Assembly: GCA_011049455.1 (NCBI GenBank) | Contig: DSBL01000076.1 | Span: 1-33,196, forward strand | Reading direction: 5' to 3' | Length of the DNA stretch: 33,196 nt | Origin: Desulfonatronum sp. | Lineage (GTDB): Bacteria > Desulfobacterota > Desulfovibrionia > Desulfovibrionales > Desulfonatronaceae | Shown: piece after piece, positions 143-33,080 of the stretch | Numbering within the stretch: the stretch's first letter is position 1 | Layout of the letters: each line of letters opens with the position of its first letter | Position numbers and translations under genes: made by a program | The notes under the pieces: generated by a model | Seen by the model: the letters and a program-made list of their open reading frames with translations, nothing else | Told to the model about the DNA's origin: nothing | Databases searched by the model: none

Positions 143-168
143 TTAAAAAGGCAGCCCCGTGGACGGGG
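141..168 (-). terminator. Possible terminator at the end of the paaK-like gene
   Basis: On the minus strand a GC-only hairpin (CCCCG/CGGGG around a four-base loop, 155-168) is followed five bases later by TTTTT. It overlaps the last codons and the stop of the upstream gene. It has the shape of an intrinsic terminator, but the stem is only five to six pairs and the gap to the T-run is longer than usual. Confidence 0.35.
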
Positions 169-1459
169 ATTCCTTTTCAAGTATTGTGGTTTTATACGTC
201 AACCCGGCCAAGGGCAGGCGCTGGGCCGGCACCTGGCGCAGACGCAATCCCAGCCCAAGGGCGCGGCGAACCCGACTGCGCATGGTTTCCAGGACCGTGC
301 CGGGCAGGGATCCGCCTTGCGGGACGGCCACCAGCAATTCCACCTGGTCTCCCAGACCGTGCATGGTGTGCACCACCACGCGCACGTCTTCGATGTCCGG
401 CGTCACCTCCCGCACGATGCGCTCCAGGCTTTGCGGATAAAACCGCACTCCGCGCACGGTCAGGGCGTCGTCGCATCGCCGCAGTACGGGAGACAGCCTG
501 GCCAGGGTCCGGCCGCAGGGACACGGTCCAGGCTGGAGCCGGCTGACATCGCCGGTGCGCAAACGAATCAAAGGGTATCCTTGGGTGGACAGGCTGGTCA
601 CCACCACCTCGCCCTCCTCGCCCAAGACCTTGGGACTGCCAGTATCCGGATCCACGATTTCCACCAGAAAATGATCTTCGGCCAGATGCAGACCCCGCTG
701 TTGAGAACATTCCGCGGCCAGGGCCGGTTCGATCATCTCCGCCACCCCATAAAGGGCATATGCCTTAAGACCCAAGCCTTGCTCGAGAAGATCGCGCACC
801 TTTGGAGTCAAACCTTCCGGTCCGAACAATCCGATGCGCAGGTGCAAATCGTTTTTCCTTCCGGCTACGTTCAAGGCGGGAATCATGTTCAGAGCAAAGG
901 ATGGTGTGCTGGCCAGAATAGTGGAACGGAAATCCACCATCATCCGAATCTGCAAAGACGCGGAAACCGTGGCTGCCGGGGTGAACATCGCGCCCAGCGC
1001 CTCGGCTCCCTGGTTGAAGGTGAAAGCGCCGGGAAACTGGCTGTAATGAAAGGCCACCTGGATGACGTCCGTACGCCCGACCCCGGCGGAAGTCATGGCC
1101 CGGCACATCAGCTCGGTCCACATCCGGATGTCCTGGCGGGTGTATCCGACAACAATGGGTTCCGCACTGGCCGCCGCGAACCGGAGTTGGACCACGCTGC
1201 GCAACGGCACGGCGAACAGTCCGTAGGGATAAGCCCGAACCAGGTCGTCGCGGGTGGTGAACGGAATCTTTGTCAAATCGGAAAGTTGCCGGATATCCTC
1301 GGGCAGCAACGCCAAATCACGAAACCGTTTGGCGTAAAAATCCACGTTGCGGGCCGCCAGGTTCAGCGTCATCTGCAGCCGCTCCAGCTGCAGCTGCTCC
1401 AGAGCCTCGCGGTCCATGCACTCCGCTTGCGGGTTCCACACGGCGTGTTCCATGCTCAT
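143..1459 (-). CDS. Phenylacetate-CoA ligase-like protein with degenerate AMP-binding loop
   Basis: PaaK-family adenylate-forming enzyme of about 438 residues, the usual family length. These enzymes normally activate aryl acids to acyl-CoA through an acyl-adenylate. Family marks are the N-terminal LEQLQLERLQ helix, an RTGD motif near residue 302, the CPCGRT cysteine pair and the GYT that follows the P-loop. The Ser/Thr/Gly-rich loop, SSGTTGKPT in typical PaaK, is here FAAASAEPI (about residues 94-102), and the YGLTE..GPG motif reads YGVAEMIEPA. The ATP-dependent step is therefore doubtful. The ATG at 1459 overlaps the livF stop as ATGA; ATGs at 1468 and 1453 are alternatives, and GGGAG at 1461-1465 suits 1453 as well. 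The gene ends a liv operon, so an aromatic or branched-chain acid ligand is likely (inference). Confidence 0.8.
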   Translation of the reverse strand: MSMEHAVWNPQAECMDREALEQLQLERLQMTLNLAARNVDFYAKRFRDLALLPEDIRQLSDLTKIPFTTRDDLVRAYPYGLFAVPLRSVVQLRFAAASAEPIVVGYTRQDIRMWTELMCRAMTSAGVGRTDVIQVAFHYSQFPGAFTFNQGAEALGAMFTPAATVSASLQIRMMVDFRSTILASTPSFALNMIPALNVAGRKNDLHLRIGLFGPEGLTPKVRDLLEQGLGLKAYALYGVAEMIEPALAAECSQQRGLHLAEDHFLVEIVDPDTGSPKVLGEEGEVVVTSLSTQGYPLIRLRTGDVSRLQPGPCPCGRTLARLSPVLRRCDDALTVRGVRFYPQSLERIVREVTPDIEDVRVVVHTMHGLGDQVELLVAVPQGGSLPGTVLETMRSRVRRALGLGLRLRQVPAQRLPLAGLTYKTTILEKESPSTGLPF

Positions 1460-2193
1460 CGCTCCCATTTGGCCTTGTAATCGCGTCCCAGATAGGCCCG
1501 GCGAAACTCGTCGTCGCCCTCCAGATCCCGGGGGTGTCCGCTTAAAATCAGGCGGCCGGCCTGCAGAACATAAGCCCTTTGACTGACGCGCAAGGCGGCC
1601 ACGGCGTTTTGCTCCACCAGCAAAATGGTCAAACCCTGCTCCTTGAGTATGTCCAAGGTTCGGAAGATTTCCTTGACCACCAGCGGGGCCAGACCAAAAG
1701 ACGGTTCATCCAGCACCAGCAAACGCGGTGCGGCCATCAGGGCTCGGGCAATGGCCAACATTTGCTGCTCCCCTCCGCTCAAGGTCGCGGCCCGTTGATC
1801 CAAACGCTGTCCAAGGACCGGAAACAACTCCAGCAGTCTGGCCTTGTTCTCTTTGATCAGTACGGCATTGCGCCGCCCGCGCAAGGCAAACGCGCCAAGA
1901 TGGAGATTCTCCCTGACGCTCATGGAGGGAAAAAGCTGACGCGCCTCGGCCACCTGCACCAGGCCCAGCTCCACGATGCGATGGGCGGGCAAACGCCTTA
2001 CGTCATAACCTTCGAAGGTCAACTCTCCGGACAACGGACGAATCAATCCGCTGAGCGCCTGGAGCAGAGTGCTTTTGCCCGCGCCGTTGGCGCCCACCAG
2101 GCAGACCGTTTCCCCGTTATTCACGTGCAGGCTGACTCCGTGCAGCACGGCGATACCGTCATACCCGGCATGGAGATTGCGTATGCGCAACAT
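1456..2193 (-). CDS. livF: Branched-chain amino acid ABC transporter ATP-binding protein LivF (copy 1)
   Basis: One of two cytoplasmic ATPases of a Liv/HAAT-type importer for branched-chain or other hydrophobic amino acids. The 245 residues are full length. Walker A GANGAGKST lies at about 34-42, the canonical ABC signature LSGGEQQ at about 138-144, and Walker B with LDEP at about 158-164. The C-terminal part keeps the VEQN switch region typical of LivF. The gene follows livG by seven bases and its stop overlaps the start of the paaK-like gene, so the genes are probably one transcript and translationally coupled. All catalytic motifs are intact, unlike those of its partner LivG in this operon. 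Confidence 0.92.
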   Translation of the reverse strand: MLRIRNLHAGYDGIAVLHGVSLHVNNGETVCLVGANGAGKSTLLQALSGLIRPLSGELTFEGYDVRRLPAHRIVELGLVQVAEARQLFPSMSVRENLHLGAFALRGRRNAVLIKENKARLLELFPVLGQRLDQRAATLSGGEQQMLAIARALMAAPRLLVLDEPSFGLAPLVVKEIFRTLDILKEQGLTILLVEQNAVAALRVSQRAYVLQAGRLILSGHPRDLEGDDEFRRAYLGRDYKAKWER

Positions 2194-2200
2194 CTTGATG

Positions 2201-2971
2201 CTATTCCCCCAAATACGCCGAAATCACTTGCGGGTCGGCCTGGATCTCTCGCGGCGGTCCCTGGGCCAAAAGCCGTCCATGGTGCAACACCAGCACATGG
2301 TCCGTATGCGCCATAACCATGTCCATATCGTGCTCCACCATGATCATGCTCATCCCTTGACCGCGCAAATCTTGCAGCAACAGCGCCATGGATTCGCGTT
2401 CGGCCATGGTCAATCCGCCCATGGGCTCGTCCAGCAGTAGCAGTTTGGGGTCACCGGCCACGGCCCTGGACAGCTCCAACAGCTTGCGCTGCCATAGGGA
2501 CAATTCCAAGACCGGTCGGCTCCATAGCGTTTCCAGGGAAAAACGGGCCAACAGCTCCAGCCCTTTTTCCTGCATTTTGCGCTCCTCGCGCCGGCTGGCC
2601 GAGCTGCGCAACAGATGTCCGAATACTCCCACTCGGCCCTGGGTGTGCAACCCCAGCAACAAATTGTCCAGAACATTCATCTCCTGCACCAACTGCACGG
2701 TCTGAAAAGTCCGAGCCAAACCCAGGACCGCACGCTCATATGCCGGCACGCCGTACAAGCTTCGTCCCTCCAGCAGGACATCCCCGGCCTGCGGGGCATA
2801 TAGGCCGCAGATGACATTGAGCATGGACGTTTTTCCAGCGCCATTGGGGCCGATCAAGGCGGACCAAAGTCCGGCCGGGACATGCAGGGAAATGTCCATC
2901 AATGCCTGCAATCCGCCGAAGCGCAGGCAAACATCCCGCAGAACAAGCAATGAGGACGCAGCCTCAGCCAT
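2201..2971 (-). CDS. livG: Branched-chain amino acid ABC transporter ATP-binding protein LivG (copy 1), altered signature loop
   Basis: Second ATPase subunit of the Liv importer, 256 residues. Walker A GPNGAGKT (about 41-48), Walker B LLLLDEP (about 177-183) and the switch histidine in VEHD (about 213) are intact. The signature loop is unusual: it reads LSLWQRKLLELSRA (157-170), where the second LivG in this window has LPYGRQRLLELARA. The conserved signature glycine is thus replaced by tryptophan, a position that contacts ATP across the dimer. The C-terminal YLGE ending is typical of LivG. The start overlaps the livM stop by eight bases. The family call is firm; full ATPase competence is not. 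Confidence 0.9.
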   Translation of the reverse strand: MAEAASSLLVLRDVCLRFGGLQALMDISLHVPAGLWSALIGPNGAGKTSMLNVICGLYAPQAGDVLLEGRSLYGVPAYERAVLGLARTFQTVQLVQEMNVLDNLLLGLHTQGRVGVFGHLLRSSASRREERKMQEKGLELLARFSLETLWSRPVLELSLWQRKLLELSRAVAGDPKLLLLDEPMGGLTMAERESMALLLQDLRGQGMSMIMVEHDMDMVMAHTDHVLVLHHGRLLAQGPPREIQADPQVISAYLGE

Positions 2972-3938
2972 GTCCCCTCCAGATTTTGCGCGCCATATTT
3001 TTCAGGGCGGGCAACAAGCCACGAGGGCAAAACATCAGCACAATCATCAAAATCAGGCCGTGCAGCAACGGCATCACATCAGGCACGGCATGCAGCCATT
3101 CCGGCAGCAGCAGCAAAAACGCCGCTCCGAAAACGCCCCCCCAAAGGTTGCCCAGCCCCCCCACGGCGGTCATGGTTACAAGTTGCAGGGACACGAACAT
3201 GTCAAAGCTGTGAGGGCTAATAAACTGCAGGTAGTGAGCGTACAGGCAGCCGGCCAAGGCCGCGAGCAAAGCCGCGGCCACAAACAGGGCGATTTTGTAT
3301 TGGACCACGGGAATGCCCAGGGACACCGGCAACAGATCGCCTTGGTGCAGGCTGCGCAGTGCCCTGCCAGGCCTGGTGCGCAGCAAGTTGGAGCACAGCC
3401 AGAGCACCGCCAAAAGCACGCCCCAAACCAAGTAGAAAAAATTGCGGTCGCTGCTCAAGTTCACCCCGGCCAGGGACATCGCCGGGATGCCGAACAAGCC
3501 GGAGGAGCCGCCGGTCATAGACTCCCATTGGATGCAGACAATGGTGAAGATCATGTTCAAGCCCAAAGTGGCCATGACCAGGTTGTGGCCTTCCAGCTTG
3601 AGCGTTGGCGCGGCCAGCACCAGGGCCACAAGGCCGGTAAGGGTCAGAGCCGCTGCAATCGCCAGACCCACGGGCAGACCATGGTGCACCGTCAAAATAC
3701 CCGAGGCGTAGGCACCCAGACCGAAAAAAGCGGCCTGCCCCAGGGAAACCTGGCCGGCCATGCCGATGAGCAGGTTCAAGCCGGTCACGGCTAAAGCAAA
3801 CAGGCCGATCAGGCTGCCCAAGGAAAGCAAATAGGTGTCCGTGACCGCGAAAGGCGTTAAGGCTGCGGCTGTGGCCAGGATCGCATACGGCAACAGACGG
3901 CGCCAAGGTCTTGCAGCTGCTGTTCGTCCGGCACTCAT
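2964..3938 (-). CDS. livM: Branched-chain amino acid ABC transporter permease LivM (copy 1)
   Basis: Inner-membrane permease of the Liv importer, about 324 residues and very hydrophobic, with roughly eight to ten membrane segments. Family marks are the GLNLLIGMAGQVSLGQAAFFG segment near the N-terminus (around residue 50) and the conserved MTAVGGLGNLWGG cytoplasmic loop near the C-terminus. I chose the ATG at 3938 because it overlaps the livH stop as ATGA; an upstream in-frame start at 3995 would add 19 polar residues and intrude 60 bases into livH. The start overlap points to translational coupling with livH, its heterodimer partner. Confidence 0.9.
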   Translation of the reverse strand: MSAGRTAAARPWRRLLPYAILATAAALTPFAVTDTYLLSLGSLIGLFALAVTGLNLLIGMAGQVSLGQAAFFGLGAYASGILTVHHGLPVGLAIAAALTLTGLVALVLAAPTLKLEGHNLVMATLGLNMIFTIVCIQWESMTGGSSGLFGIPAMSLAGVNLSSDRNFFYLVWGVLLAVLWLCSNLLRTRPGRALRSLHQGDLLPVSLGIPVVQYKIALFVAAALLAALAGCLYAHYLQFISPHSFDMFVSLQLVTMTAVGGLGNLWGGVFGAAFLLLLPEWLHAVPDVMPLLHGLILMIVLMFCPRGLLPALKNMARKIWRGHG

Positions 3939-4816
3939 ACCCGTTTCAACGTCCTTTGGCCGAACAAGCCCGAGGGTCTGACCCACAACACGCAAAGCAG
4001 AATCAGAAAAGCCAGGGCGTCCTTATAGGCCGAGGAAATGAATCCGGCCGCCAGGGACTCCAGAACTCCCAGGAGCAGCCCACCGGCCACGGCTCCCCAG
4101 ACATGTCCGTAGCCGCCGAGAATGGCAGCCGCAAACCCCTTCAAGCCGAGCATCACCCCGGCGCTATAGTGCATGCCGGTGATGGGCGCGATGAGGATTC
4201 CGGCAGTGGCTCCAAGAGCCGCGCTCAAGGCAAAGGACACCATGACCATGCGGGCCACGGGAATGCCCACCAGCACGGCTCCGCGGCGATTATCGGCCAC
4301 GGCCCGGATGGCCTGCCCCACAGGGGTCCGGTGAAAGAATACATGTAAAAGGGTCACCGCGGCCATGGTCAGAAACAAAATCCACAGTGCTTGCCGGGAA
4401 ATCACCGCGTTGCCGAGCAATAACGGTGCTTCCGAGGAAAAGGAGGTCAGTGCCCGGGCCGTTTTGCCCCAAAAGAGCGACGCTGCGCCACGTACGGCGA
4501 TGGAAAAACCCACGGTGATCAGCACGAGAATGAGGATATGTCTGGACCTGGCCAGACCCAGGGGGATGCGCTCCAAAAAGAGGCCCACAAGCATGGCCCC
4601 GGCAATGCTTAGCACAAAGGCCGCAGGCAGGGACAGTCCCAGATCCTGGGTCAAACTGATCATGATCATGGCCCCGAGCATCACGAATTCGCCCTGGGCG
4701 AAATTGACCATGCCCGTGGCGTTGTGAATGATGCAGAACCCCACGGCCACCAAGGCGTAAATGCTGCCCGAGGTCAACCCGGACAGCAGAAACTGGGGAA
4801 GTTGATCAAAAAGCAT
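3935..4816 (-). CDS. livH: Branched-chain amino acid ABC transporter permease LivH (copy 1)
   Basis: Second permease of the Liv importer, 293 residues, hydrophobic throughout. It carries the family segment NFAQGEFVMLGA near residue 40 and the conserved GLKGFAAAILGGYG loop near residue 220. A TTG at 4831 would add five residues, but the ATG at 4816 gives a protein of exactly the length of the second LivH in the window, with aligning N-termini (MLFDQLPQFLLSGLT against MDLASLLQFLASGLT), so I prefer it. The ribosome binding site is weak. No periplasmic binding protein gene precedes it: the position taken by livK in the other operon is occupied by a phosphoglycerate mutase gene. Confidence 0.9.
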   Translation of the reverse strand: MLFDQLPQFLLSGLTSGSIYALVAVGFCIIHNATGMVNFAQGEFVMLGAMIMISLTQDLGLSLPAAFVLSIAGAMLVGLFLERIPLGLARSRHILILVLITVGFSIAVRGAASLFWGKTARALTSFSSEAPLLLGNAVISRQALWILFLTMAAVTLLHVFFHRTPVGQAIRAVADNRRGAVLVGIPVARMVMVSFALSAALGATAGILIAPITGMHYSAGVMLGLKGFAAAILGGYGHVWGAVAGGLLLGVLESLAAGFISSAYKDALAFLILLCVLWVRPSGLFGQRTLKRV

Positions 4817-4827
4817 GGAAACCGGAA

Positions 4828-6030
4828 TCAAACCTTAAAAGAACGCAAAATCCAGGGCAGCAGTTCCTCGCCTTGTTCCAGGATCAGTCCGGTGGAAGCG
4901 GCCTGGGTCTCGCCAAAGCCGTTGGCTGTTGCCCCCGCGGAGATGCCGGGCCAAAGCAGAAACGGCACGGGATCGGCCACGTGGGTGCGTTTGACCAGAG
5001 GGGTGAGGTGATCGCAGGCAATCAACATGGCGCAGCCTTGATCTGCAAGCCCGGCACGCATTGGTCCGACCACCTGGGCATCAAAATCCTCAATAGCCCG
5101 GACCTTGTTTTCCAAGCTGCCCTGGTGTCCGCATTCGTCCGGGGCCTCCACATGCACGAACACAAAATCCCCCTGGTCCAAAAAATCCAAAGCGGTGCGC
5201 ACCTTGCCCGCATAGTCCGTATCCAGATAGCCCGTGGCCCCGGGCACCTCTGCCACGGTCATGCCCATGGCCCGGCCCAGCCCCTTGATCAAATCCACGG
5301 CGGAAATCACGGCCCCGCGCATTCCGAAGCGTTCTGCGAAAAACGGCAAGCGCAAAGGCTTGCCCTGCCCCCAGGGCCAAATGGCATTGGCCTGGGAAGG
5401 ATTGAGCGCGGGGTCCGCAAGCAGCTTGGCGGCCTTGTTGATCGCTTCCCACAAGGCCGGTGCCTGCTGGAACCGCTGCAAGTCCTCGCCGATAGGTTGA
5501 TCCAGAATGTCATGGGGCGGACGGATGAACAGCCGCGCCTCGTCTCCCTGGGCGCGGCCGGATTGCGTCAGCAAGTGACGATACTGCACCCCTGCGTGAA
5601 AATCCAACCCGTTGTTGCCGCCCAATTGTTTGCGCAACAAGGTGATCAACCGCCCGGCCGTGTCCGAATCAATATGCCCGGCGGAATAATCCACCATTAT
5701 TCCAGCCTCGCTCCACTGGGAAACCTGGACCAGATTGCAGCGCCAGATAAGATCTTCCGGCGCCAGTTCCAATCCTTGGGCCGCCGCCTCAATGGGACCT
5801 CGGCCCGTATGAAACACAGCTGGATTGCAGCCCAGTAGGGCCATGTTCGCGATGTCCGATCCAGGAGGCAGACCCTCGGGCACTGTACGGCACAAGCCCA
5901 CGCTGCCCTCCCTGGCCAGGGCGTCCATGTGCGGTGTATGCGCCGATTCCAGGGGGGTTTTGCCGGCCAATGCCGCGATGGGCCAATCACCCATGCCGTC
6001 GGCGATCAAAAAGGCGATTTTCTTGCTCAT
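4828..6030 (-). CDS. apgM: Cofactor-independent phosphoglycerate mutase, ApgM type
   Basis: Alkaline-phosphatase-superfamily phosphoglycerate mutase of about 400 residues, the archaeal-type 2,3-bisphosphoglycerate-independent enzyme that interconverts 3- and 2-phosphoglycerate. The N-terminal ADGMGDWP contributes the first metal aspartate (about residue 11), PPGSDIANMALLG carries the region of the nucleophilic serine (about 58), and the C-terminal part has HVEAPDECGHQG and CDHLTP metal ligands. Length matches the ApgM family rather than the 510-residue GpmI. It lies 29 bases downstream of ddl and 11 bases before livH, so it is co-transcribed with cell-wall and transport genes. A related phosphotransfer role is possible, but the motif set favours mutase. 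Confidence 0.85.
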   Translation of the reverse strand: MSKKIAFLIADGMGDWPIAALAGKTPLESAHTPHMDALAREGSVGLCRTVPEGLPPGSDIANMALLGCNPAVFHTGRGPIEAAAQGLELAPEDLIWRCNLVQVSQWSEAGIMVDYSAGHIDSDTAGRLITLLRKQLGGNNGLDFHAGVQYRHLLTQSGRAQGDEARLFIRPPHDILDQPIGEDLQRFQQAPALWEAINKAAKLLADPALNPSQANAIWPWGQGKPLRLPFFAERFGMRGAVISAVDLIKGLGRAMGMTVAEVPGATGYLDTDYAGKVRTALDFLDQGDFVFVHVEAPDECGHQGSLENKVRAIEDFDAQVVGPMRAGLADQGCAMLIACDHLTPLVKRTHVADPVPFLLWPGISAGATANGFGETQAASTGLILEQGEELLPWILRSFKV

Positions 6031-14591: not shown

Positions 14592-15887
14592 TCAAAACTT
14601 GCGGCGGTCCACCACCCTGTTCGGACCGGTCTGCAACTCGGCGATGGTTGAGCGTTCCACAAGCTTGACCTCGAACACCAACCCCAGTTCCATGGCCAGA
14701 CGTTGCCTGGTTAAGTCGATAAATTTTTGCTGCGCCTTGATTTGATCCGGAGCCACCATGTTTGCCTCCACCAGAAGCATGGCTCGATCCAGCCCGCCAT
14801 GGCGGTCCACGACGATGAGATGATCCGGTTCGGCCTTGTGGGTTTCGACAAGAATCGCGCCAATACGCTCCGGGAATACGTTGACGCCCTGGATGATCAG
14901 CATGTCGTCGCTGCGGCCATGAATGCGCTCCATGCGCACCATGGTTCGGCCGCAAGCGCAAGGCTCGAAGAGAAGCCGGGTCAAATCTCCTGTCCGAAAA
15001 CGGATCATGGGCAAGGCTTCCTTGGTCAGGGTGGTTAGGACCAATTCCCCGATTTCACCGGGAGGCAAAGGCTTTAGCGTCATCGGATCAATGATTTCAG
15101 CCAAGAAATGATCCTCGTTGATGTGCATGCCCTGGCGTTCCAAGCATTCGCCAGCCACGCCCGGTCCCATGATCTCGCTGACGCCATAATTGTCCGTGGC
15201 CACGATTTTCAAACGTTCCTGGATGGTCTCGCGCGTCCCTTCAGACCAGACTTCTCCTCCGAACAGTCCCCAGCGTAAAGGCAGGACATTGCGGTTCACG
15301 CCCATTTCATCCATCACATCCGCCAAGTACAGCGCATAGCTGGGGATACATGACAGGGTCGTGGCCCGGTAATCCAAAATGATGCCCACTTGACGCCTGA
15401 CATTGCCGTTGGAAACCGGCACCACCGCTGCTCCCAAGGTTTCCGCGCCGTAATGCATGCCAAAGGCCATGGTGGACAATCCATAGCCGTGGGCCACATG
15501 AACCACGTCCTCCCGTCCCACTCCGCCCGCAGCCAACACCCTGGCCGTCAGTCGAGACCACTTTCGGATGTCCCCCAGGGTGTAGCCAAACACCGTGGTC
15601 CCTTCGGAAAAACCCGAGGATGTCTGCAGTCGAACCACTTCCCGCAACGGCACGGCGAACAAACCGTAGGGCGCATTGTCCCGCAAATCCTGCCGGGTGG
15701 TCAAAGGCAGATGATGTACATCGGCCAACGACTGAAAATCGTAGGGATCAATACCCAATTCCTCAAATTTTTTACAATAAAACGGTACGTTCCTGGAGAC
15801 CCTGGTCAGGGTGGCCTGCAGACGCTCCAGTTGCAGCTGCTCCAGTTCAAGCCTGGACATGCCTTCCAGTTCCGGTTCAAACATCAT
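14592..15887 (-). CDS. Phenylacetate-CoA ligase-like protein (copy 2)
   Basis: PaaK-family adenylate-forming enzyme, 431 residues. It keeps more of the family than copy 1: YGVSEIMGPGVAGEC, GELVLTTLTKEALPMIRFRTGD, CACGRT and RSDDMLIIQGVNVFP are close to canonical. Two sites deviate. The P-loop, usually SSGTTGKPT, is SSGFSEGTT (about residues 90-98), and the C-terminal GKA-type stretch holding the catalytic lysine reads TGPNRVVDRR. Activity as a CoA ligase is likely but not certain. The ATG at 15887 overlaps the livF stop as ATGA and has GGGAGG upstream; a frame that reaches 16019 is out of place. As the last gene of a full liv operon it may activate the acid that the transporter brings in. Confidence 0.88.
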   Translation of the reverse strand: MMFEPELEGMSRLELEQLQLERLQATLTRVSRNVPFYCKKFEELGIDPYDFQSLADVHHLPLTTRQDLRDNAPYGLFAVPLREVVRLQTSSGFSEGTTVFGYTLGDIRKWSRLTARVLAAGGVGREDVVHVAHGYGLSTMAFGMHYGAETLGAAVVPVSNGNVRRQVGIILDYRATTLSCIPSYALYLADVMDEMGVNRNVLPLRWGLFGGEVWSEGTRETIQERLKIVATDNYGVSEIMGPGVAGECLERQGMHINEDHFLAEIIDPMTLKPLPPGEIGELVLTTLTKEALPMIRFRTGDLTRLLFEPCACGRTMVRMERIHGRSDDMLIIQGVNVFPERIGAILVETHKAEPDHLIVVDRHGGLDRAMLLVEANMVAPDQIKAQQKFIDLTRQRLAMELGLVFEVKLVERSTIAELQTGPNRVVDRRKF

Positions 15888-16615
15888 TGCTGTTCCACCT
15901 CCCGTCCAAGATAAGCCCGCTGAACATCCCGGTTGAGTTGCAGCTCTTCTGACGAACCTTGCAGGATAATCCGCCCGGTTTCCATGACATAGCCCCGATT
16001 GGCGATGCGCAGGGCGCACTTGGCGTTTTGTTCCACCAAAAGCACGGTCAAGCCGAAAGCGTCCCGCAATTCAACCACGTGCCGGAAAATCATCTGGGAC
16101 AAGGCCGGGGCCAGCCCCATACCCGGCTCATCCAAAAGCAGCATCCTTGGCTTGGCCATCAAGGCCCGGCCTATGGCCAGCATTTGCTGTTCGCCGCCGG
16201 ACAAAGTTCCAGCGGATTGTTTCCTGCGCTGCCCCAGAACAGGAAACATTTCATAGACTTGTCGAATTTCTTGTTGAATTTGGTTGCGCATTTTCAACCC
16301 GCGGCGCTGATAAGCGCCCAAAAGCAAGTTATCCTCCACGCTCATGGGCTTGAACACCAGCCTTCGCTCAGGCACCTGGGAAATGCCTGCGGCGACAATA
16401 TGTTCCGGACGCAACCTGGTAATGTCTTGCCCGTCAAAATGCAGGCTGCCGCCGGAGGAGCGCAACAGGCCGGAGATGGTGGTCAACAATGTCGTCTTGC
16501 CCGCGCCGTTTCCCCCAATAAGGGCCACGATTTCCCCTTGGTTGACGTGCAGGGAAACCCGTCGCACCGCATGCACACGGCTGTAAAATATGTCCACGTT
16601 TTTCAGAATAAGCAT
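15884..16615 (-). CDS. livF: Branched-chain amino acid ABC transporter ATP-binding protein LivF (copy 2)
   Basis: ATPase of the second Liv importer, 243 residues. Walker A GGNGAGKTT at about 34-42, signature LSGGEQQ near 138 and Walker B LLLDEPGMGLAP are all canonical, as is the VEQN switch. It is two bases downstream of livG and overlaps the next paaK-like gene by four bases. Compared with copy 1 it differs enough in sequence to be an old paralogue rather than a recent duplicate, yet the gene order around it is identical. Confidence 0.93.
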   Translation of the reverse strand: MLILKNVDIFYSRVHAVRRVSLHVNQGEIVALIGGNGAGKTTLLTTISGLLRSSGGSLHFDGQDITRLRPEHIVAAGISQVPERRLVFKPMSVEDNLLLGAYQRRGLKMRNQIQQEIRQVYEMFPVLGQRRKQSAGTLSGGEQQMLAIGRALMAKPRMLLLDEPGMGLAPALSQMIFRHVVELRDAFGLTVLLVEQNAKCALRIANRGYVMETGRIILQGSSEELQLNRDVQRAYLGREVEQQ

Positions 16616-16617
16616 GT

Positions 16618-17397
16618 TTACCGTGCATCCTCGCCAAGATAGGCGGCGATGACTTCCGGATTTTTCTGGATTTCAAACGGTGCTCCAGAGGCGATGACCT
16701 GTCCGAAATGCAGCACGGTAACGGCATCGCTGATCCGCATGATCAATTCCATGTCGTGTTCCACAATGGCCACGGTAATGTTCAATTCGTCCCTGATCCG
16801 CCGGATCAGTCCGGCCAGGGCCTGTGTTTCCCTGGTGTTCAGGCCGGCGGCCGGCTCGTCCAGCAACAGGATCTGCGGTTGCGCGGCCAGGGCCCGAGCC
16901 AGTTCCAACAATCTCTGCCGGCCGTAAGGCAGTTCCCATGCCGGCAGGCTTCTTTCAGCAAACAGCCCGACAAATTCGAGCTTTTCTTCGGCCAAGGCTC
17001 GGCAACGGCGCTCCTCCAAAAAATACCTGGGTGTCTTGAACAGCGCACCCAGCACACCATATCGCACATCCCGATGCGCCCCGGTCATCACGTTTTCCAG
17101 GACGCTCATGGTGGTGAACACTTCCAGATTCTGAAAGGTGCGTACCACACCGGCCTGGGCCCTGGCCCAGGCCGGAACGCGAGTCATATCCTGGCCCAAC
17201 AATCCAACAGTCCCGGAACAGCACTCCACCAGTCCGCTGACCACGTTCAACAGGGTGGTCTTGCCCGCGCCATTGGGACCGATCAGGGCCGTGATCGTTC
17301 CTTGGACAACCCGGAAATCCACATCGCAAAGCGCCATGACACCGCCAAAGCGCACGCTCAGGTTTCGACAGTGCAACGCCACGTTGTCAGGGCTCAC
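16618..17397 (-). CDS. livG: Branched-chain amino acid ABC transporter ATP-binding protein LivG (copy 2)
   Basis: Second ATPase of the complete Liv importer, 259 residues. Walker A GPNGAGKTT (about 40-48), a normal LivG signature LPYGRQRLLELARAL, Walker B LLLDEPAAGLN and switch VEHD are all present. The start is a GTG at 17397 with AGAAGG eight bases upstream, overlapping the livM stop by eleven bases. It is the reference for judging the altered signature loop of LivG copy 1. Confidence 0.93.
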   Translation of the reverse strand: MSPDNVALHCRNLSVRFGGVMALCDVDFRVVQGTITALIGPNGAGKTTLLNVVSGLVECCSGTVGLLGQDMTRVPAWARAQAGVVRTFQNLEVFTTMSVLENVMTGAHRDVRYGVLGALFKTPRYFLEERRCRALAEEKLEFVGLFAERSLPAWELPYGRQRLLELARALAAQPQILLLDEPAAGLNTRETQALAGLIRRIRDELNITVAIVEHDMELIMRISDAVTVLHFGQVIASGAPFEIQKNPEVIAAYLGEDAR

Positions 17398-18352
17398 GGC
17401 CGAACCTTCTGCGGACGTTGCTCAACAATTTGCATACACCGCCCGCCAGCCCTTTGGGTAAAAACATCATGCATAAAATAAGAATCAATCCGTAAATGAT
17501 CACTTCCAGATTCTCATAGAAACGCAAAAATTCCGGCATCACCGTTAAAAACACCGCCCCGGCGATACCGCCCCACAAACTGGCCATCCCGCCCAGCACG
17601 ACCATGGTGATCAGTTGCACGGAAAAGTGAAACCCAAAGGACGACGGGGCCACGAAATTGAGATAGTGGGCGTAGAGCACCCCGGCGATGCCCGCGTACA
17701 CCGAGGAAAGCACGAATACGAACAGTTTGTGCCGAGCAATGTTGATGCCCATGGATTGAGCCGCGGTCTCGCTGATGTGGAGAGCCATCAGGGCGCGTCC
17801 GTATTTGGAGTGGATCAGGTTCAGGGAGGTCAAAAGCGCCACGGCAACCATGCTCCAGACCAGATAAAAATAGGACAGGTCTGAATCGAATACGAATCCG
17901 AATACCTCCAGCACGGGGATGCCCACAAAGCCGGACGGTCCGCCTGTCAAGCCGATGGCTTCATTAAAGAAAATATAGACGATCAGGCCAAAGCCCAAAG
18001 TGGCCATGGCCAAATAATACCCCTTCAATTTGAGTACGGGCATGCCGATAAGCATGGCCACCAGCGCCGTCAGCCCCACGCCGGAAACCGCTCCCACGGC
18101 CAGGGGCAATCCGTACGTGCCGGTGAGAACAGCCGTGGTATAGGCGGCGATACCGAACAAGGCGCCGTGCCCCAAAGAAATCTGTCCGGCAAACCCCAGG
18201 AGCAGATTCAGGCCAAGGACAATGATCGCAAAGATCCCGGCCATGGTCAGGATGCTTAAATAGTAATAATCGTGCCGCAACAGGAAGGGGGTGGCCAAGA
18301 CCAGCAGGAAAAAAGCGGCCACCGGGGTCAGTTGACGCAGGGTTGAAGACAT
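17387..18352 (-). CDS. livM: Branched-chain amino acid ABC transporter permease LivM (copy 2)
   Basis: Inner-membrane permease, 321 residues, with about nine hydrophobic segments. It carries the GLNLLLGFAGQISLGHGALFG segment (about 48-68) and the MVVLGGMASLWGG loop near residue 260. The ATG at 18352 lies three bases after the livH stop. Partner of LivH copy 2 in the membrane channel. Confidence 0.92.
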   Translation of the reverse strand: MSSTLRQLTPVAAFFLLVLATPFLLRHDYYYLSILTMAGIFAIIVLGLNLLLGFAGQISLGHGALFGIAAYTTAVLTGTYGLPLAVGAVSGVGLTALVAMLIGMPVLKLKGYYLAMATLGFGLIVYIFFNEAIGLTGGPSGFVGIPVLEVFGFVFDSDLSYFYLVWSMVAVALLTSLNLIHSKYGRALMALHISETAAQSMGINIARHKLFVFVLSSVYAGIAGVLYAHYLNFVAPSSFGFHFSVQLITMVVLGGMASLWGGIAGAVFLTVMPEFLRFYENLEVIIYGLILILCMMFLPKGLAGGVCKLLSNVRRRFGREP

Positions 18353-18355
18353 GGC

Positions 18356-19237
18356 TCAAACCCGCTCTGTATCCGGAACCCCGAACAATCCCGACGGCTT
18401 CCAGAGCAGAATTCCCAGGATGACCACAAAGGCGATGGCGTCCTTGTAGGCCGAGGAAACAAGACCCGCGCCAAAGGCTTCCAGAATTCCGAGAATCAGT
18501 CCTCCGGCAGCGGCACCGAACGGGTTGCCCAGGCCTCCGAGGATGCACGCGGCAAAGCCCTTCATACCCAGAAGTACGCCCACATCATAGGAGGTCATGG
18601 TCAACGGCGTGAGAATCACTCCCCCCACCGCACCCACAAAGGCCGACAGCATGAAGGAAGCCATGACCATCCGTTCCACGCTGATGCCCACCAGGCGTGC
18701 GGCCCTGGGTTCAAATGAGCAGGCCAGCATTGCCCGGCCAAAGATCGTTCGACTGAAAAAGCCTTTCAGCAACGCCAGAACAACCACCGCGATCCCCAAA
18801 ATCCAGAGACTTTGCGGGATAATGGTCGCGCCCAGAAGATGGATCGGGGCCATTCCGGAAAAAGCAGGGAGCACATAAGTGTCCTTGCCCCAAAAAAGCA
18901 TGACCAGTCCGCGGATGGTGATGGAGACGCCAATGGTCACGATAATCAGGTTGATTGCCGAGGCGTTCCGCACAGGTCGAATGGTCAACCGCTCCATGAG
19001 CAGCCCGACCAAGGTCGTGGCGACCACGGCCAGCAGGATCGCAGCGGGAAGACCGGGATCCAACCAATGCATGAATACCACGGCCAGAATTCCGCCGAGC
19101 ATCACGAACTCGCCCTGGGCGAAGTTGATGATCCCCGTGGTATTGAAAATGATGGTAAAACCCAACGCCGCCAAGCCGTAGGTGCTGCCTACGGTCAAGC
19201 CGGACGCCAGAAACTGCAAAAGACTGGCGAGATCCAT
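18356..19237 (-). CDS. livH: Branched-chain amino acid ABC transporter permease LivH (copy 2)
   Basis: Inner-membrane permease of 293 residues, the same length as copy 1, with NFAQGEFVMLGG near residue 40 and the GMKGFAACILGGLGNPFGA loop near residue 220. The start at 19237 (MDLASLLQF) is chosen because it overlaps the livK stop as ATGA; an upstream frame to 19258 would run into livK without a ribosome binding site. Confidence 0.92.
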   Translation of the reverse strand: MDLASLLQFLASGLTVGSTYGLAALGFTIIFNTTGIINFAQGEFVMLGGILAVVFMHWLDPGLPAAILLAVVATTLVGLLMERLTIRPVRNASAINLIIVTIGVSITIRGLVMLFWGKDTYVLPAFSGMAPIHLLGATIIPQSLWILGIAVVVLALLKGFFSRTIFGRAMLACSFEPRAARLVGISVERMVMASFMLSAFVGAVGGVILTPLTMTSYDVGVLLGMKGFAACILGGLGNPFGAAAGGLILGILEAFGAGLVSSAYKDAIAFVVILGILLWKPSGLFGVPDTERV

Positions 19238-20382
19238 CAATCGGACACAAGCTCCCAATCGCCGCCCGCGATCCGGACTATGACAAAGGCCCGCTCGTCC
19301 AGACCGTTGTGATCCTCGGCCGATAGCTCGAAAATACCGCCAGTGGCGACAAAACCATGTATTTCTTCCAGGTGGTCCCGAATGGCCTGGGGCGTGGCTT
19401 CACCAGCCCGACGCACGGCCTCGACTATGAGTGTCAGGGCATCGTAAGCATATCCGCCGAAGGTGGACACCTCGGTGTTGAATCTGGCTTCATACTCCTG
19501 AATGTATGCCTGGAGCACGGCTTTCTGGGGGTGATCTTCGGACAATTGATCAGCCACGGCCAGGCGTCCCGCCGGAAGAATCAATCCTTCCGCCGCGTCT
19601 CCGGCCAGCTCGATGAACCGTTTGGAAGCAACGCCGTGGCTCATATACAGGGGCGTGTCCATGGCCAGCTGCACCCTGTTGCGGGCAATCACCGCGGGAC
19701 CGGGATTGGTTCCCCAGCAAACAATGGCGTCCGGATTCAGCCCTCGAATTTTCGTCAGCTGCGGGGTCATGTCCGTGTCTTTCGGTCCATAGATTTCATC
19801 CGCCGCCACATTCATGCCATGGGCCGGAATCAACTCCATCAACACTTCGCGACCGGCCTGGCCAAAGCCGTCGGATACCGTAATGATCGCGATGTTTTTA
19901 TACCCCTGGGACTTGGCATGTTCCAAAATCTTGATCACGGCATGGCGGTCGGATTGGGGCGTCTTGAAGACCCAGGGATTGACCGGCTTGACGATTTTTT
20001 CAGCAGCAGCGCAGGAGACAAGGGGTATCCGGGCCGAGGCGAACTTGGGCATGATGGCCAGGGTGTTGCCCGAGGTGGTCCCGCCAATGGCCGCGACCAC
20101 CCGGTCGCGCTTGAGCAGTCGATCCGCGGCGAGCACGGCCTTGTTCACCTCTGTTTCATCATCATAGATGATCATTTCCAGGGGGCGTCCCAAAATGCCG
20201 CCCTGGGCGTTGATCTTGTCCTGAAGCAACAGCAGGGTGTTGCGTTCCGGTTCGCCGAGAAATGACGCCGGACCGCTTACGGAAAGCACTGCGCCGACCT
20301 TGATCGGCTCGGCGGCCTTGGCTGCTGGTGCGCTGATAAATACCATCACCGCGAGAGCAAAAAACAGGATGCGAGTGATCAT
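19237..20382 (-). CDS. livK: Periplasmic branched-chain amino acid-binding protein (LivK-like)
   Basis: Substrate-binding protein of the Liv importer, 381 residues, type I periplasmic-binding fold. It starts with a signal peptide (MITRILFFALAVMVF..., cleavage plausible after AKA near residue 23) and lacks a lipobox cysteine, so it should be free in the periplasm. Family marks are IKVGAVLSVSGPASFLG, the DDETEVNKAVLAADRLL helix and IGGTTSGNTLA. The ATG at 20382 has AAGGAG eight bases upstream; a TTG two codons earlier is too close to it. It is the only binding protein gene in the window and could also serve the livK-less importer (inference). The true ligand may be aromatic, given the paaK-like gene in the operon. 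Confidence 0.9.
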   Translation of the reverse strand: MITRILFFALAVMVFISAPAAKAAEPIKVGAVLSVSGPASFLGEPERNTLLLLQDKINAQGGILGRPLEMIIYDDETEVNKAVLAADRLLKRDRVVAAIGGTTSGNTLAIMPKFASARIPLVSCAAAEKIVKPVNPWVFKTPQSDRHAVIKILEHAKSQGYKNIAIITVSDGFGQAGREVLMELIPAHGMNVAADEIYGPKDTDMTPQLTKIRGLNPDAIVCWGTNPGPAVIARNRVQLAMDTPLYMSHGVASKRFIELAGDAAEGLILPAGRLAVADQLSEDHPQKAVLQAYIQEYEARFNTEVSTFGGYAYDALTLIVEAVRRAGEATPQAIRDHLEEIHGFVATGGIFELSAEDHNGLDERAFVIVRIAGGDWELVSD

Positions 20383-20695
20383 GGCCAAATCTCCTTCGAA
20401 TGGGTTTGCGGTTCACGGGACAGGCGGTTTATCGCATGGACAATTTTGCAAAAACAATACACGGCGTCGAAAATCCCAGTCATTTCATGTTCAACGCAAT
20501 TGTCTCGCCAACAGAAGAAAAGACTCCACGGCTCACGAAGGATGCGCACCATGGACGGGGTGTTCATTACCGGTCCAGCCCTGCCTTGTCATCAAACAAA
20601 CAGCCCATGGGTGGAATCCAGCCGATCAATGGCGGCGGCAAAGAATTCTGATCAGGGCATTGTATTCTTTTGACAAGAAAAGCTTCAAAAAACAT
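20383..20695. other. Gap of 313 bases upstream of livK
   Basis: I see no gene here. The gap holds the livK ribosome binding site, a candidate sigma-54 promoter at 20495-20511, and farther upstream an imperfect inverted repeat (GGAC/GTCC arms, about 20549-20576) at a distance where an enhancer-binding protein could sit. Frames of 60-80 codons in the gap have no ribosome binding sites. Confidence 0.5.
20495..20511 (-). promoter_or_regulatory. Candidate sigma-54 promoter of the livKHMGF-paaK operon
   Basis: Read on the minus strand the site is TTGGCGAGACAATTGCG. The -24 GG and -12 GC are separated by exactly ten bases, and TTGG.C...TTGC fits the consensus TTGGCAC-N4-TTGC at all key positions except the two after TGGC. 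The transcript would start near 20484, about 100 bases before livK. Confidence 0.45.
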
Positions 20696-30339: not shown

Positions 30340-30399
30340 CGTCAAGGTCCCTTCCAGGCTAGGAAAAACGATATATGGTTCAAAACTGCGGGCCAGATC

Positions 30400-31116
30400 A
30401 TGGACAGTGAAATAATCACCACCGACACCGACAAGATCATCAAGGCCCTGATGGACATCAGCAGCGCCATCAACTCTGATCTCTACCTGGAGGACATTCT
30501 CCGGCTGATCGTGATGGTCACGGCCAAGGTCACGGGGGTCGAAATCTGCTCGTTGTGGCTGATCGAGGACACGGAAAAGGGGAAAAAAATCCGCCTCAAG
30601 GCGACCCAGACCATTGAGCCGGTGTACCTGAAAGACCGGGAACTGAATATCGACGAGGGCGTTGTCGGGCACGTGGCGTCACGCAAGATCCCGTTGATCG
30701 TTCGCGACGTCCTGGCCGAACCGCTGTTCAAGGAAAAGGAGATGGCCAAAAAGCTCGGCCTCAAATCCATGGCCAGCATCCCCCTGCTGCTCAAGGATCA
30801 CCAAGTGATCGGGGTTCTGAACTGCTTCACCTCGGATTTCCACGACTTTTCAGACACGGAAATCAACCTGATCACCACCGTGGCCAACCAGGCTGCTGTG
30901 GCCATCTATAACTCGGAGCTGATGATCAAGACCAAGGTCATCCAGGAAGAGCTGGAAACCCGGAAAATGGTTGACCGGGCCAAGGACGTCCTGATGCGGC
31001 GGACCGGAATGTCCGCGGAGGAGGCGTATCAATGGCTGCGCAAGAAAAGCATGGACTCCAGAAAGCCCATCCGCGGCATTGCCGAGGCCGTCCTCCTTTC
31101 AGAAGAAATTTATTGA
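30400..31116 (+). CDS. GAF-ANTAR transcription antiterminator
   Basis: Cytoplasmic regulator of 238 residues. A GAF domain (about 10-175) is the likely ligand sensor; there is no receiver domain, so control is by ligand or redox rather than phosphorylation. A helical linker leads to a C-terminal ANTAR domain (about 180-235): ELETRKMVDRAKDVLMRRTGMSAEEAYQWLRKKSMD with the RA-K and EAY-LR pattern of AmiR, NasR and EutV. ANTAR domains bind paired six-base-loop hairpins in nascent RNA and prevent terminator formation. Exactly such a pair lies in the 317-base gap after this gene, before a glutamate-synthase-like gene. It follows the hisF paralogue by 60 bases; its own ribosome binding site is weak. 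Confidence 0.93.
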   Translation: MDSEIITTDTDKIIKALMDISSAINSDLYLEDILRLIVMVTAKVTGVEICSLWLIEDTEKGKKIRLKATQTIEPVYLKDRELNIDEGVVGHVASRKIPLIVRDVLAEPLFKEKEMAKKLGLKSMASIPLLLKDHQVIGVLNCFTSDFHDFSDTEINLITTVANQAAVAIYNSELMIKTKVIQEELETRKMVDRAKDVLMRRTGMSAEEAYQWLRKKSMDSRKPIRGIAEAVLLSEEIY

Positions 31117-31165
31117 AGAGTTTCAAAGAGATACTTTTCCTTGTGACAAAATTGTGAAATGCTGA

Positions 31166-31195
31166 TTGACAAATTTGCGAAAAAGGAGGTATTGG
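31166..31195 (+). promoter_or_regulatory. Candidate promoter of the glutamate-synthase-like gene
   Basis: A perfect TTGACA at 31166-31171 is followed after 18 bases by a weak TATTGG at 31190-31195. The expected start near 31201 coincides with the first base of the leader hairpin P1. The -10 is poor, so transcription might also enter from the GAF-ANTAR gene. An AAAAGGAGG at 31181-31189 overlaps the promoter and resembles a ribosome binding site, but no good start follows it. Confidence 0.4.
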
Positions 31196-31200
31196 CACCC

Positions 31201-31361
31201 ACTCCACGACACAACGGCGTGAAGTGGGGTTTCTAGACATACGCATCAGCCAATGCATTCGCGCGATACTTCCGGCACGACCTGAAGCCTCGGCGCGAAT
31301 CCGCCGCGAGACAAAGACGTCTTGCCCGCAGTTGTTGACAACCGGGGACAGGACGTTTTTT
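31201..31361 (+). ncRNA. ANTAR-responsive attenuator leader (paired six-base-loop hairpins plus terminator)
   Basis: Leader RNA with the two-hairpin layout recognised by ANTAR antiterminators. P1 (31201-31230) has a seven-pair lower stem (31201-31207 with 31224-31230, one G-U), a G-A/A-A internal loop and CAC/GTG closing the loop AACGGC (31213-31218). P2 (31306-31325) has seven pairs, one G-U, closing the loop AAAGAC (31313-31318). Both loops have A at position 1 and G at position 4, the known ANTAR-element pattern. The loop and 3' strand of P2 form the 5' arm of the terminator (31313-31324), so binding to P2 would block termination. The 75-base linker between P1 and P2 is longer than in the best-known cases and contains further hairpins (for example 31292-31305). 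Confidence 0.75.
31313..31361 (+). terminator. Attenuator terminator in the leader of the glutamate-synthase-like gene
   Basis: Twelve-pair lower stem (31313-31324 with 31349-31360, two G-U), inner CCCG/CGGG pairing and a GTTG-TTGA-CAAC tip; the transcript passes into six T (31356-31361). It lies 72 bases before the ATG at 31434 and is mutually exclusive with hairpin P2. Confidence 0.8.
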
Positions 31362-31433
31362 GTTTGCGGCGCCAGGCCTTGAAAAACGCTCCTCTCCCCC
31401 ACCCCCTTTATTCTTCAAGGAGAGAAAAGGATC

Positions 31434-33080
31434 ATGAACGACATGCGTTTTTCAAAGGCCAATGACGTACTTGGAACCACCAATCGCGGCAATCCGGCGG
31501 AATCCGGGTTGTGCACGCTGTGCCGGGCGGACTGCCAGGGCAAGTGTGAAACCTTCCTATCCAGCCTGGTGGGCCGCTCGATTCTCTACCCGAGAAACTT
31601 CGGGCTGGTCACCGCCGGCGCCAACAACACCACCCACGTCGGGGTTTCCTACAACGCGCTGCGCATCCAAGGCCGTGCCTACGGCGTCCAGGGCGTGGCC
31701 CCGGACCTGTCCACGGACCCGGACGACTGCATCTTCCCCAACGTCAGCCTGGAAACCAGTTTCGGTCGAGAAATCAAGACCAAGTCACGCATCCCGCTGA
31801 TGACCGGGGCCTTGGGCTCCACCTTTATCGCGGAAAAATACTGGAATTCCTTCGCCATTGGCGCGGCCCTGGTGGGCATTCCCGTTGTTGTCGGCGAAAA
31901 CGTGGTCGGCGTGGACCGGAACTCGGTGATAGCCAAGGGCAAGATCAGCAAAGCTCCGGAGCTGGAGCGGCGTATTGCCAGCTACACCCGGTATAACGGC
32001 GATTACGGGGCGATCATTGTCCAGATGAACGTGGAAGACACCCGCAACGGCGTGGCCGAGTACATCGCCCAGAAATACGGCGACCAATGCATCATTGAAC
32101 TCAAATGGGGCCAGGGCGCCAAGGACATCGGCGGAGAGATCCAGGTCACCAGCCTTGAATACGCAAAATTTTTGAAGAACCGCGGCTACATCGTCGACCC
32201 TGACCCGGAAAAGGAATGGGTTCAGGCGGCCTTTGCCAAGGGGGCTATCACCTCTTTTGCCCGACACAGCCGCCTGGGCGGCACCAATCTGAGCAAGGTT
32301 GAACAGGTCCGCGAGGACTTCATGAAGACCGTGGACTATTTGCGCAGCCTGGGCGTGCGCAGGATTTCCCTGAAGACCGGGGCCTACGGCATGGAGGAGC
32401 TGGCCATGGCCATCAAGTTCGCCACCGAAGCCAAGCTGGACCTGTTGACCATTGACGGAGCGGGCGGCGGCACCGGGATGAGCCCCTGGAACATGATGCA
32501 GAGCTGGGGCGTACCCTCAATCATTTTGCATGCCAAAGCCCATGAATACGCCTCCATCCTGGCGGCCCGCGGTCAGCAGGCGGTAGACCTGTCCTTTGCC
32601 GGCGGGTTTGCGCTGGAGGACCATATCTTCAAGGCCCTGGCCCTGGGTGCGCCATTCACCAAACTCGTGTGCATGGGCCGGGCGATCATGATTCCAGGTT
32701 TTGTCGGAACCAACATCGAGGGAGCGCTCCATCCCGAACGTCGCGAGAATATCTTCGGCAATTGGGAGCAGTTGCCCAAAACCGTGCAGGATATCGGCGA
32801 TAGTCCGGAACAGATCTTCGCCGGGTATTACGATGTGCAGGAGAAGGTGGGCAAAAAGGAAATGAAGAACATCCCCTACGGCGCCATCGCCTTCTGGACC
32901 CTGGCGGACAAACTGGCCTGCGGACTGCAGCAGCTGATGGCCGGAGCGCGCAAGTTTTCCATGGACCGGATTTCGCGCAGCGACCTGTTTTCCGGGAACC
33001 GGGAAACAGCTCAAGAAACCGGCATTCCATATGTATCCGAAGCTAACGACGAAACCGCCAAGAAAATACTCGCCTCCTAG
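31434..33080 (+). CDS. FMN-binding glutamate-synthase-like flavoprotein
   Basis: Protein of 548 residues consisting of the FMN/central-catalytic barrel of glutamate synthase (GltB-type, about 90-470), with DGAGGGTGMSPWNMMQSWGVP, LSFAGGF and CMGRAIMIPGFVG. The glutaminase domain and C-terminal beta-helix of full GltB are absent, and the usual 3Fe-4S cysteines are not visible. Instead the N-terminus has Cys27, Cys30, Cys34 and Cys38 (CX2CX3CX3C), which may hold an iron-sulfur cluster. Separate amidotransferase and reductase subunits would be needed for glutamate synthesis; none is in the window. A leader with an ANTAR-type attenuator precedes it. AAGGAG lies 11 bases and AAAAGG three bases before the ATG. 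Confidence 0.85.
   Translation: MNDMRFSKANDVLGTTNRGNPAESGLCTLCRADCQGKCETFLSSLVGRSILYPRNFGLVTAGANNTTHVGVSYNALRIQGRAYGVQGVAPDLSTDPDDCIFPNVSLETSFGREIKTKSRIPLMTGALGSTFIAEKYWNSFAIGAALVGIPVVVGENVVGVDRNSVIAKGKISKAPELERRIASYTRYNGDYGAIIVQMNVEDTRNGVAEYIAQKYGDQCIIELKWGQGAKDIGGEIQVTSLEYAKFLKNRGYIVDPDPEKEWVQAAFAKGAITSFARHSRLGGTNLSKVEQVREDFMKTVDYLRSLGVRRISLKTGAYGMEELAMAIKFATEAKLDLLTIDGAGGGTGMSPWNMMQSWGVPSIILHAKAHEYASILAARGQQAVDLSFAGGFALEDHIFKALALGAPFTKLVCMGRAIMIPGFVGTNIEGALHPERRENIFGNWEQLPKTVQDIGDSPEQIFAGYYDVQEKVGKKEMKNIPYGAIAFWTLADKLACGLQQLMAGARKFSMDRISRSDLFSGNRETAQETGIPYVSEANDETAKKILAS

Follow-up and report, generated by a model that had tools for sequence, protein, structure and literature searches.

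Among the known ANTAR antitermination systems, EutV/eutP, NasR/nasF and AmiR/amiE share a target RNA in which two hairpins carry six-base loops with A at position 1 and G at position 4 (A1/G4 hexaloops), and in which the second hairpin, P2, overlaps a terminator (PMC3369931, PMC8934654). The leader described here, from the sulfate-reducing bacterium Desulfonatronum sp., is built in the same way, and the regulator encoded beside it keeps most of the residues with which ANTAR proteins of such systems contact RNA. The sensors differ, being a receiver domain in EutV, a NIT domain in NasR and a GAF domain in the regulator studied here. As in NasR and PAL, sensor and ANTAR domain form one polypeptide and no kinase is needed (PMC7496416), although NasR senses nitrate through its NIT domain and PAL senses light through a PAS-LOV domain. 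That source counts two characterised one-component ANTAR proteins in all, one with a NIT and the other with a PAS-LOV sensor (PMC7496416). GAF-ANTAR proteins are a recognised class, which had no characterised member in 2012 according to Ramesh et al. (PMC3369931).

Ramesh et al. 2012 already predicted ANTAR elements in front of genes for glutamate synthase, glutamine synthetase and other nitrogen functions (PMC3369931), which reduces the novelty of finding one before a glutamate-synthase-like gene. The closest precedents there are glutamate synthase leaders of Desulfotomaculum, a Firmicute, with the same RNA architecture and the same kind of target. They belong to another phylum, and the text of that paper names no cognate regulator for them, whereas at the present locus the regulator lies next door, its gene being the single ANTAR gene that the genome has. 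Individual matches from Desulfobacterota may be listed in the hit tables that supplement the paper. What the present comparison adds is a predicted regulator-target assignment for a GAF-ANTAR protein and the apparent spread of this pairing in Desulfobacterota.

The window, by which we mean the whole 33,196-nt stretch of DNA that was analysed, is Desulfonatronum sp. GCA_011049455.1, contig DSBL01000076.1, positions 1 to 33,196 of the forward strand; the genome (2.87 Mb, 95% complete) is an assembly of 164 contigs. The features of the locus are as follows.

30400..31116, plus strand: GAF-ANTAR regulator gene, 238 aa (PF03861, 71 bits, and PF01590, 70 bits, both over cut-off)
31166..31195, plus strand: promoter-like sequence, TTGACA followed by a weak -10 (TATTGG, 18-nt spacing), from sequence
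31201..31230, plus strand: P1 hairpin, loop AACGGC at 31213-31218 (pair listing, comparison with the relative L003, covariation in 29 relatives)
31255..31304, plus strand: linker hairpin between P1 and P2 (folding, -19.8 kcal/mol)
31306..31325, plus strand: P2 hairpin, loop AAAGAC at 31313-31318 (7-bp stem, 100% identical in L003, core kept in relatives)
31313..31361, plus strand: intrinsic terminator with T-run, using the P2 loop and 3' strand (folding; terminator pairs covary in relatives)
31417..31422, plus strand: ribosome-binding-like AAGGAG, from sequence
31434..33080, plus strand: glutamate-synthase-like flavoprotein gene, 548 aa, the putative controlled gene (partial PF01645 match, 57 bits)

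Elsewhere in the window, two similar clusters on the minus strand (143-4831 and 14592-19258) each hold a phenylacetate-CoA-ligase-like gene and genes for a branched-chain-amino-acid-type ABC transporter. A substrate-binding protein gene (19237-20388) adjoins the second cluster.

An earlier note, made from the letters of the window, had described P1, P2 and a terminator that takes the loop and 3' strand of P2 as its 5' arm. Both hairpins were confirmed pair by pair within 31201-31361, and the overlap was confirmed by pairing and by folding energies. The P1 loop is closed by CAC/GTG, the only 3 bp that adjoin it; below this upper stem lie a 2x2 purine internal loop and 7 further pairs, with outer ends at 31201 and 31230. 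The P2 stem is the 7-bp GCGAGAC/GTCTTGC. Thus, judged by the definition of Ramesh et al. 2012, both hairpins have hexanucleotide loops on stems of at least 3 bp (P1 with 3 bp plus its lower stem, P2 with 7 bp), both loops have A1 and G4, and P2 overlaps an intrinsic terminator. The terminator (31313-31360, with the T-run at 31356-31361) folds at -23.7 kcal/mol versus -9.2 for P2 alone and, since its 5' arm begins in the P2 loop, P2 and the terminator are mutually exclusive. The leader as a whole folds more stably than its shuffles (z = -5.05). No further A1/G4 hexaloop hairpin was found in the linker between P1 and P2.

The promoter-like TTGACA was placed at 31166-31171 by sequence inspection and is followed by two weak -10 options, TATTGG at 18 nt spacing or GGTATT at 16. 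The earlier prediction that transcription starts on the first base of P1 holds approximately: the start expected from these signals falls near the 5' base of P1. An exact TTGACA lies upstream of P1 in 27 of 40 element-bearing relatives, and 36 of the 40 reach a score of at least 9 of 12, versus 28% of shuffles. A simple promoter and terminator scan of the leader detected neither site; the terminator stem-loop is longer and bulged and the -10 is weak.

For statistical tests of the element, we used a detector of two A1/G4 hexaloop hairpins with an overlapping terminator. The window leader scored 69.25, a value reached by none of 2000 dinucleotide shuffles. Applied downstream of GAF-ANTAR genes, the detector was positive in 33 of 84 real regions, in none of their 84 reverse complements and in 1 of 420 shuffles; it was likewise negative in all 24 flavoprotein leaders taken from loci that lack an ANTAR gene. 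The compensatory changes that had been proposed as a check were found in P1 and the terminator: among 29 leaders, double changes occur in 6 of 8 P1 pairs and 5 of 14 terminator pairs, in both cases above shuffled and slid controls. The A1/G4 loops and the P2-terminator overlap, on whose loss in orthologous leaders the proposal would have fallen, are kept. An alignment of 31 leaders, which had been picked by the A1/G4 rule, has no variation at A1 and G4 of either loop, and the P2 core GAC[AANGRY]GTC is present in all aligned relatives. The shared form consists of a P1 with ...CAC[AANGGC]GTG..., a P2 with GAC[AAAGGC]GTC and a terminator arm ending in GRCGCC-TTTTT.

Because the picking rule had favoured good stems, the test was repeated with leaders chosen by P2 and terminator only. 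An A1/G4 hexaloop hairpin of at least 4 bp lies within 50 nt upstream in 78% of these 64 leaders, a set that includes one chance match without a terminator (L116), compared with 0% in the control region and 5% in shuffles. When the best hexaloop hairpins upstream of P2 are considered independently of the picking rule, 42 of 51 have A1 and G4. The commonest closing stem in the repeated test is CAC/GTG.

The element also occurs together with the ANTAR gene. Within the order, 6 of 101 genomes have an ANTAR gene. A search with a covariance model (R1), built from 29 relatives with the window left out, gave strong matches in 4 of these 6 and a weak match in a fifth (G047), whose leader resembles that of the window. 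Three of the six (those of L004, L006 and L035) contributed leaders to the R1 training set and match by construction; the G037 match is independent of it. The element of the window itself scores only 14 bits and was missed in the R1 genome search, being recognised by inspection and by the detector. Across the 95 genomes that lack an ANTAR gene, R1 gave a single weak match (G097, E = 0.02). The element is therefore present in 6 of 6 ANTAR genomes versus 0 or 1 of the 95 others (Fisher p about 1e-9; 5e-7 for the R1 matches alone). Thus, the ANTAR antitermination reading has come through the comparative tests.

A structured leader with a terminator could also be read as one that needs no protein regulator, either a riboswitch, in which the RNA itself binds the ligand, or a leader-peptide attenuator, and the length of the structured leader and its intrinsic terminator are what such a device would have. 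Nevertheless, a search of the leader against Rfam returned no meaningful family match, conservation is limited to the two hexaloop hairpins and the terminator arms while the linker is free to vary, and presence of the element tracks presence of an ANTAR gene. We therefore give this explanation very little credence.

The own genome of the window contains 32 matches to the P2 core, and the window site has the longest uninterrupted terminator arm, 11 pairs versus 8 G-U-rich pairs at most among the other 31. No comparable overlapping terminator was found at any of those 31 sites. The best model match considered as a second element (C6, 23 bits) was rejected, since it falls within a recombinase-like coding sequence. 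It is thus likely, judging from this assembly of 164 contigs, that the genome has one target.

The regulator has full GAF and ANTAR domains (PF03861 at 71.2 bits versus a cut-off of 27.3) and is the product of the sole ANTAR gene found in the 2.87 Mb, 95% complete genome. This agrees with the earlier description of an adjacent GAF-ANTAR protein without a receiver domain; the GAF domain lies where EutV-type proteins have their receiver. An AlphaFold2 model (pLDDT 83) has a GAF fold, a long helix and a three-helix end, in that order. The ANTAR part aligns to EutV without gaps. In EutV, Arg142, Lys143, Lys149, Tyr164, Met172 and Arg175 hold the flipped G4 and the loop (PMC8934654), and the equivalents are R188, K189, K195, Y210, M218 and R221. 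Across 49 homologues, R188, K189, K195, M218 and R221 never vary, and the Y210 position holds Y or F in 47. The EutV contacts Glu160 and Arg177 are not conserved, so 6 of the 8 positions compared closely are kept, among them the equivalents of Arg142, Lys149 and Tyr164, which hold G4.

By sequence and by the fold of the AlphaFold2 model, the structures nearest to the GAF half include PtsP (EI-Ntr) entries 3trc and 3ci6, and this half also matches a NifA model. The EI-Ntr and NifA GAF domains are thus among the closest matches of the sensor, whose output, unlike theirs, is an RNA-binding ANTAR domain. The GAF domain of EI-Ntr responds to glutamine in Sinorhizobium and Caulobacter (PMC4848567). 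This analogy suggests that the ligand of the regulator is a molecule that reports nitrogen status, and since the GAF half is closest to a domain that is glutamine-responsive in other bacteria, our best guess is that it would be glutamine or 2-oxoglutarate.

The leader has the anatomy of an ANTAR target RNA, this anatomy is conserved and covaries in relatives, the element and the ANTAR gene co-occur, and most RNA-contacting residues are kept. From these observations we infer that the regulator binds the RNA, that a ligand controls it and which way the switch responds, and we put the probability that the GAF-ANTAR protein exerts ligand-controlled antitermination upstream of the flavoprotein gene at roughly 0.83. 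Transcription of that gene would start at the intergenic promoter, beside P1. By default, the nascent RNA would fold the terminator at 31313-31361 and transcription would stop after about 160 nt. Binding of a ligand would switch the GAF domain of the regulator, whereupon its ANTAR domains would bind the hexaloops, P1 and then P2. With P2 held closed, the 5' arm of the terminator would be unavailable, and polymerase would read into the flavoprotein gene.

In one respect the window copy is atypical. Its P1 and P2 loops are 94 nt apart, compared with 19-45 nt in 43 relatives that have one clear P1, and the spacing is far longer than in the EutV, NasR and AmiR systems. The linker between the stems is 75 nt in the window and in L003 and mostly 2-26 nt in relatives, and it falls outside the 2-25 nt of curated actinobacterial ANTAR target RNAs (PMC8164766). 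Since Ramesh et al. define the linker as variable (PMC3369931), we retain the window leader in the ANTAR target RNA family as an atypical copy. In vitro, EutV antitermination is lost after a 20-nt extension of the linker (PMC8934654). Folding suggests that the linker hairpin at 31255-31304 might bring P1 and P2 together, but the idea of a conserved bridge is not supported: in L003, the nearest relative, 4 of the 18 pairs are disrupted, with a compensatory change in 1.

The long spacing, the P1 upper stem of only 3 bp, the low R1 score and the poor preservation in L003 of the hairpin that might bridge the gap could all be signs that the window copy is a decaying ANTAR element, with P1 too weak and too distant and the terminator acting as a constitutive attenuator, while the system works in relatives. 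The comparison with L003 points the other way. Identity between the two leaders is 100% in P2 and 88% in P1 versus 76% in the linker and 59% in the stretch before the promoter, and the P1 loop and its closing pairs are identical. Both loci also keep an intact regulator gene beside the leader, with 94% protein identity. We consider decay improbable, and the switch is probably functional in the window.

The window and L003 come from different families of the order, yet their DNA is 85% identical over 30399-33074, a stretch that takes in the GAF-ANTAR gene, the leader and the flavoprotein gene. The similarity starts and stops at the outer ends of the two genes, and the upstream HisA-like gene of the window was not found at that place in L003. 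In a quick flavoprotein tree, the window protein falls in an 8-row set with support of 100, of which seven rows come from ANTAR genomes or loci and the eighth (L005) from a genome with its ANTAR gene on another contig; this set is separate from 23 same-order proteins without ANTAR, which form a fully supported clade. The pattern fits a cassette in which regulator, RNA and target were transferred together.

The target is less easily classified than the RNA. The flavoprotein has a partial FMN/synthase match to PF01645 (57 bits) and no glutaminase or GXGXG domain; it is therefore not a complete glutamate synthase, which has the glutaminase, FMN/synthase and GXGXG domains in one enzyme. At a separate site, the same genome encodes a protein that matches glutamate synthase much better (346 bits). 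We accordingly regard it as no more than likely that the target is a nitrogen gene. A glutaminase domain and a GXGXG-type relative are encoded elsewhere in the genome, and it is possible that the flavoprotein is part of a split glutamate synthase. Orthologues occur in 66 of 101 genomes of the order (E <= 0.001, short partial matches included). On contig C1 of the same genome (68160-71659), glutaminase and glutamate synthase domains lie in two same-strand frames about 1.5 kb apart, an arrangement that would be a split gene or a frameshift. At L049, L086, L107 and at L103, L109, L110, the GAF-ANTAR gene has as neighbours genes for what, judged from sequence, are the other parts of a split glutamate synthase, a glutaminase-like and a GXGXG-like protein.

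A scan of bacterial genomes revealed 80 more GAF-ANTAR loci at 65-80% identity, nearly all of which carry a Desulfobacterota name. A same-strand flavoprotein gene or paralogue follows the GAF-ANTAR gene in about 39 of the loci, and by hand count the element lies in the gap in about 35 of these. Where the regulator is next to the flavoprotein, that element is the sole copy in 9 of 12 genomes. A search of 13 genomes whose GAF-ANTAR gene lies apart from the flavoprotein gene found the element elsewhere in all 13, in 10 of them before the flavoprotein gene or a paralogue. These separated loci bear on the explanation that the terminator, lying as it does between the two genes, only ends the transcript of the GAF-ANTAR gene, which it would indeed halt, and that the hairpins do nothing to regulate the gene that follows. 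The element remains before the flavoprotein or another target when the regulator lies elsewhere, most leaders have a TTGACA promoter before P1, and P1 and the A1/G4 loops are conserved, although a plain terminator needs neither. A mere end of transcript is thus very unlikely, and antitermination upstream of the flavoprotein gene remains the preferred reading. The earlier picture of a self-contained switch of sensor, RNA target and nitrogen gene holds insofar as regulator, RNA and gene adjoin and recur in dozens of relatives; the nitrogen role of the gene is only likely.

Other copies of the element precede MvhD and methylene-THF reductase genes or a glutamine synthetase gene. The loci with an element before MvhD-like and methylene-THF reductase genes are L139, L142, L146, L152, L154, L155, L157 and L161. 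At single loci adjacent to the regulator, the element stands before genes for glutamate dehydrogenase (L093), classical GltB (L106) or a PPDK-like protein (L076).

Several leaders depart from the shared form. Three successive A1/G4 hexaloop hairpins are present in L075, L090 and L093, and, with one stem mismatch, in L083, L095 and L160; since the middle hairpin lies at the usual distance from P2 (21-27 nt, loop to loop), we regard the outermost as the extra one. The divergent leaders of L099, L100 and L108, which the model misses, have a P1 of the form GTAATAC[AARGGC]GTATTAC followed by the hairpin GTCTC[AAAGAT]GAGAC or similar. In the glutamine synthetase leader L158, the first position of the P2 loop is G rather than A (GAAGGC).

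A wider interpretation, which we offer as tentative and somewhat against the odds, is that a GAF-ANTAR protein, probably reading glutamine or 2-oxoglutarate, controls an antitermination regulon throughout Desulfobacterota. Such a regulon would comprise nitrogen assimilation (glutamate-synthase-like genes, glutamine synthetase, glutamate dehydrogenase) and C1 metabolism (MvhD, methylene-THF reductase). It would travel between families as a two-gene cassette with its RNA, and some of its members would have a third hexaloop hairpin or a spacing well beyond the limits of known ANTAR elements. The copies at MvhD-like and methylene-THF reductase genes would be what ties the regulon to C1 metabolism. 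At the locus itself, the regulator, its RNA target and the putative controlled gene are adjacent and the ANTAR gene is the only one of the genome, so that both ligand and mechanism would be testable in one construct. The long-spaced window copy bears on the claim that ANTAR systems require closely spaced hairpins, and the recurrence of the pairing in dozens of sulfate reducers would make it a regulon ready for study.
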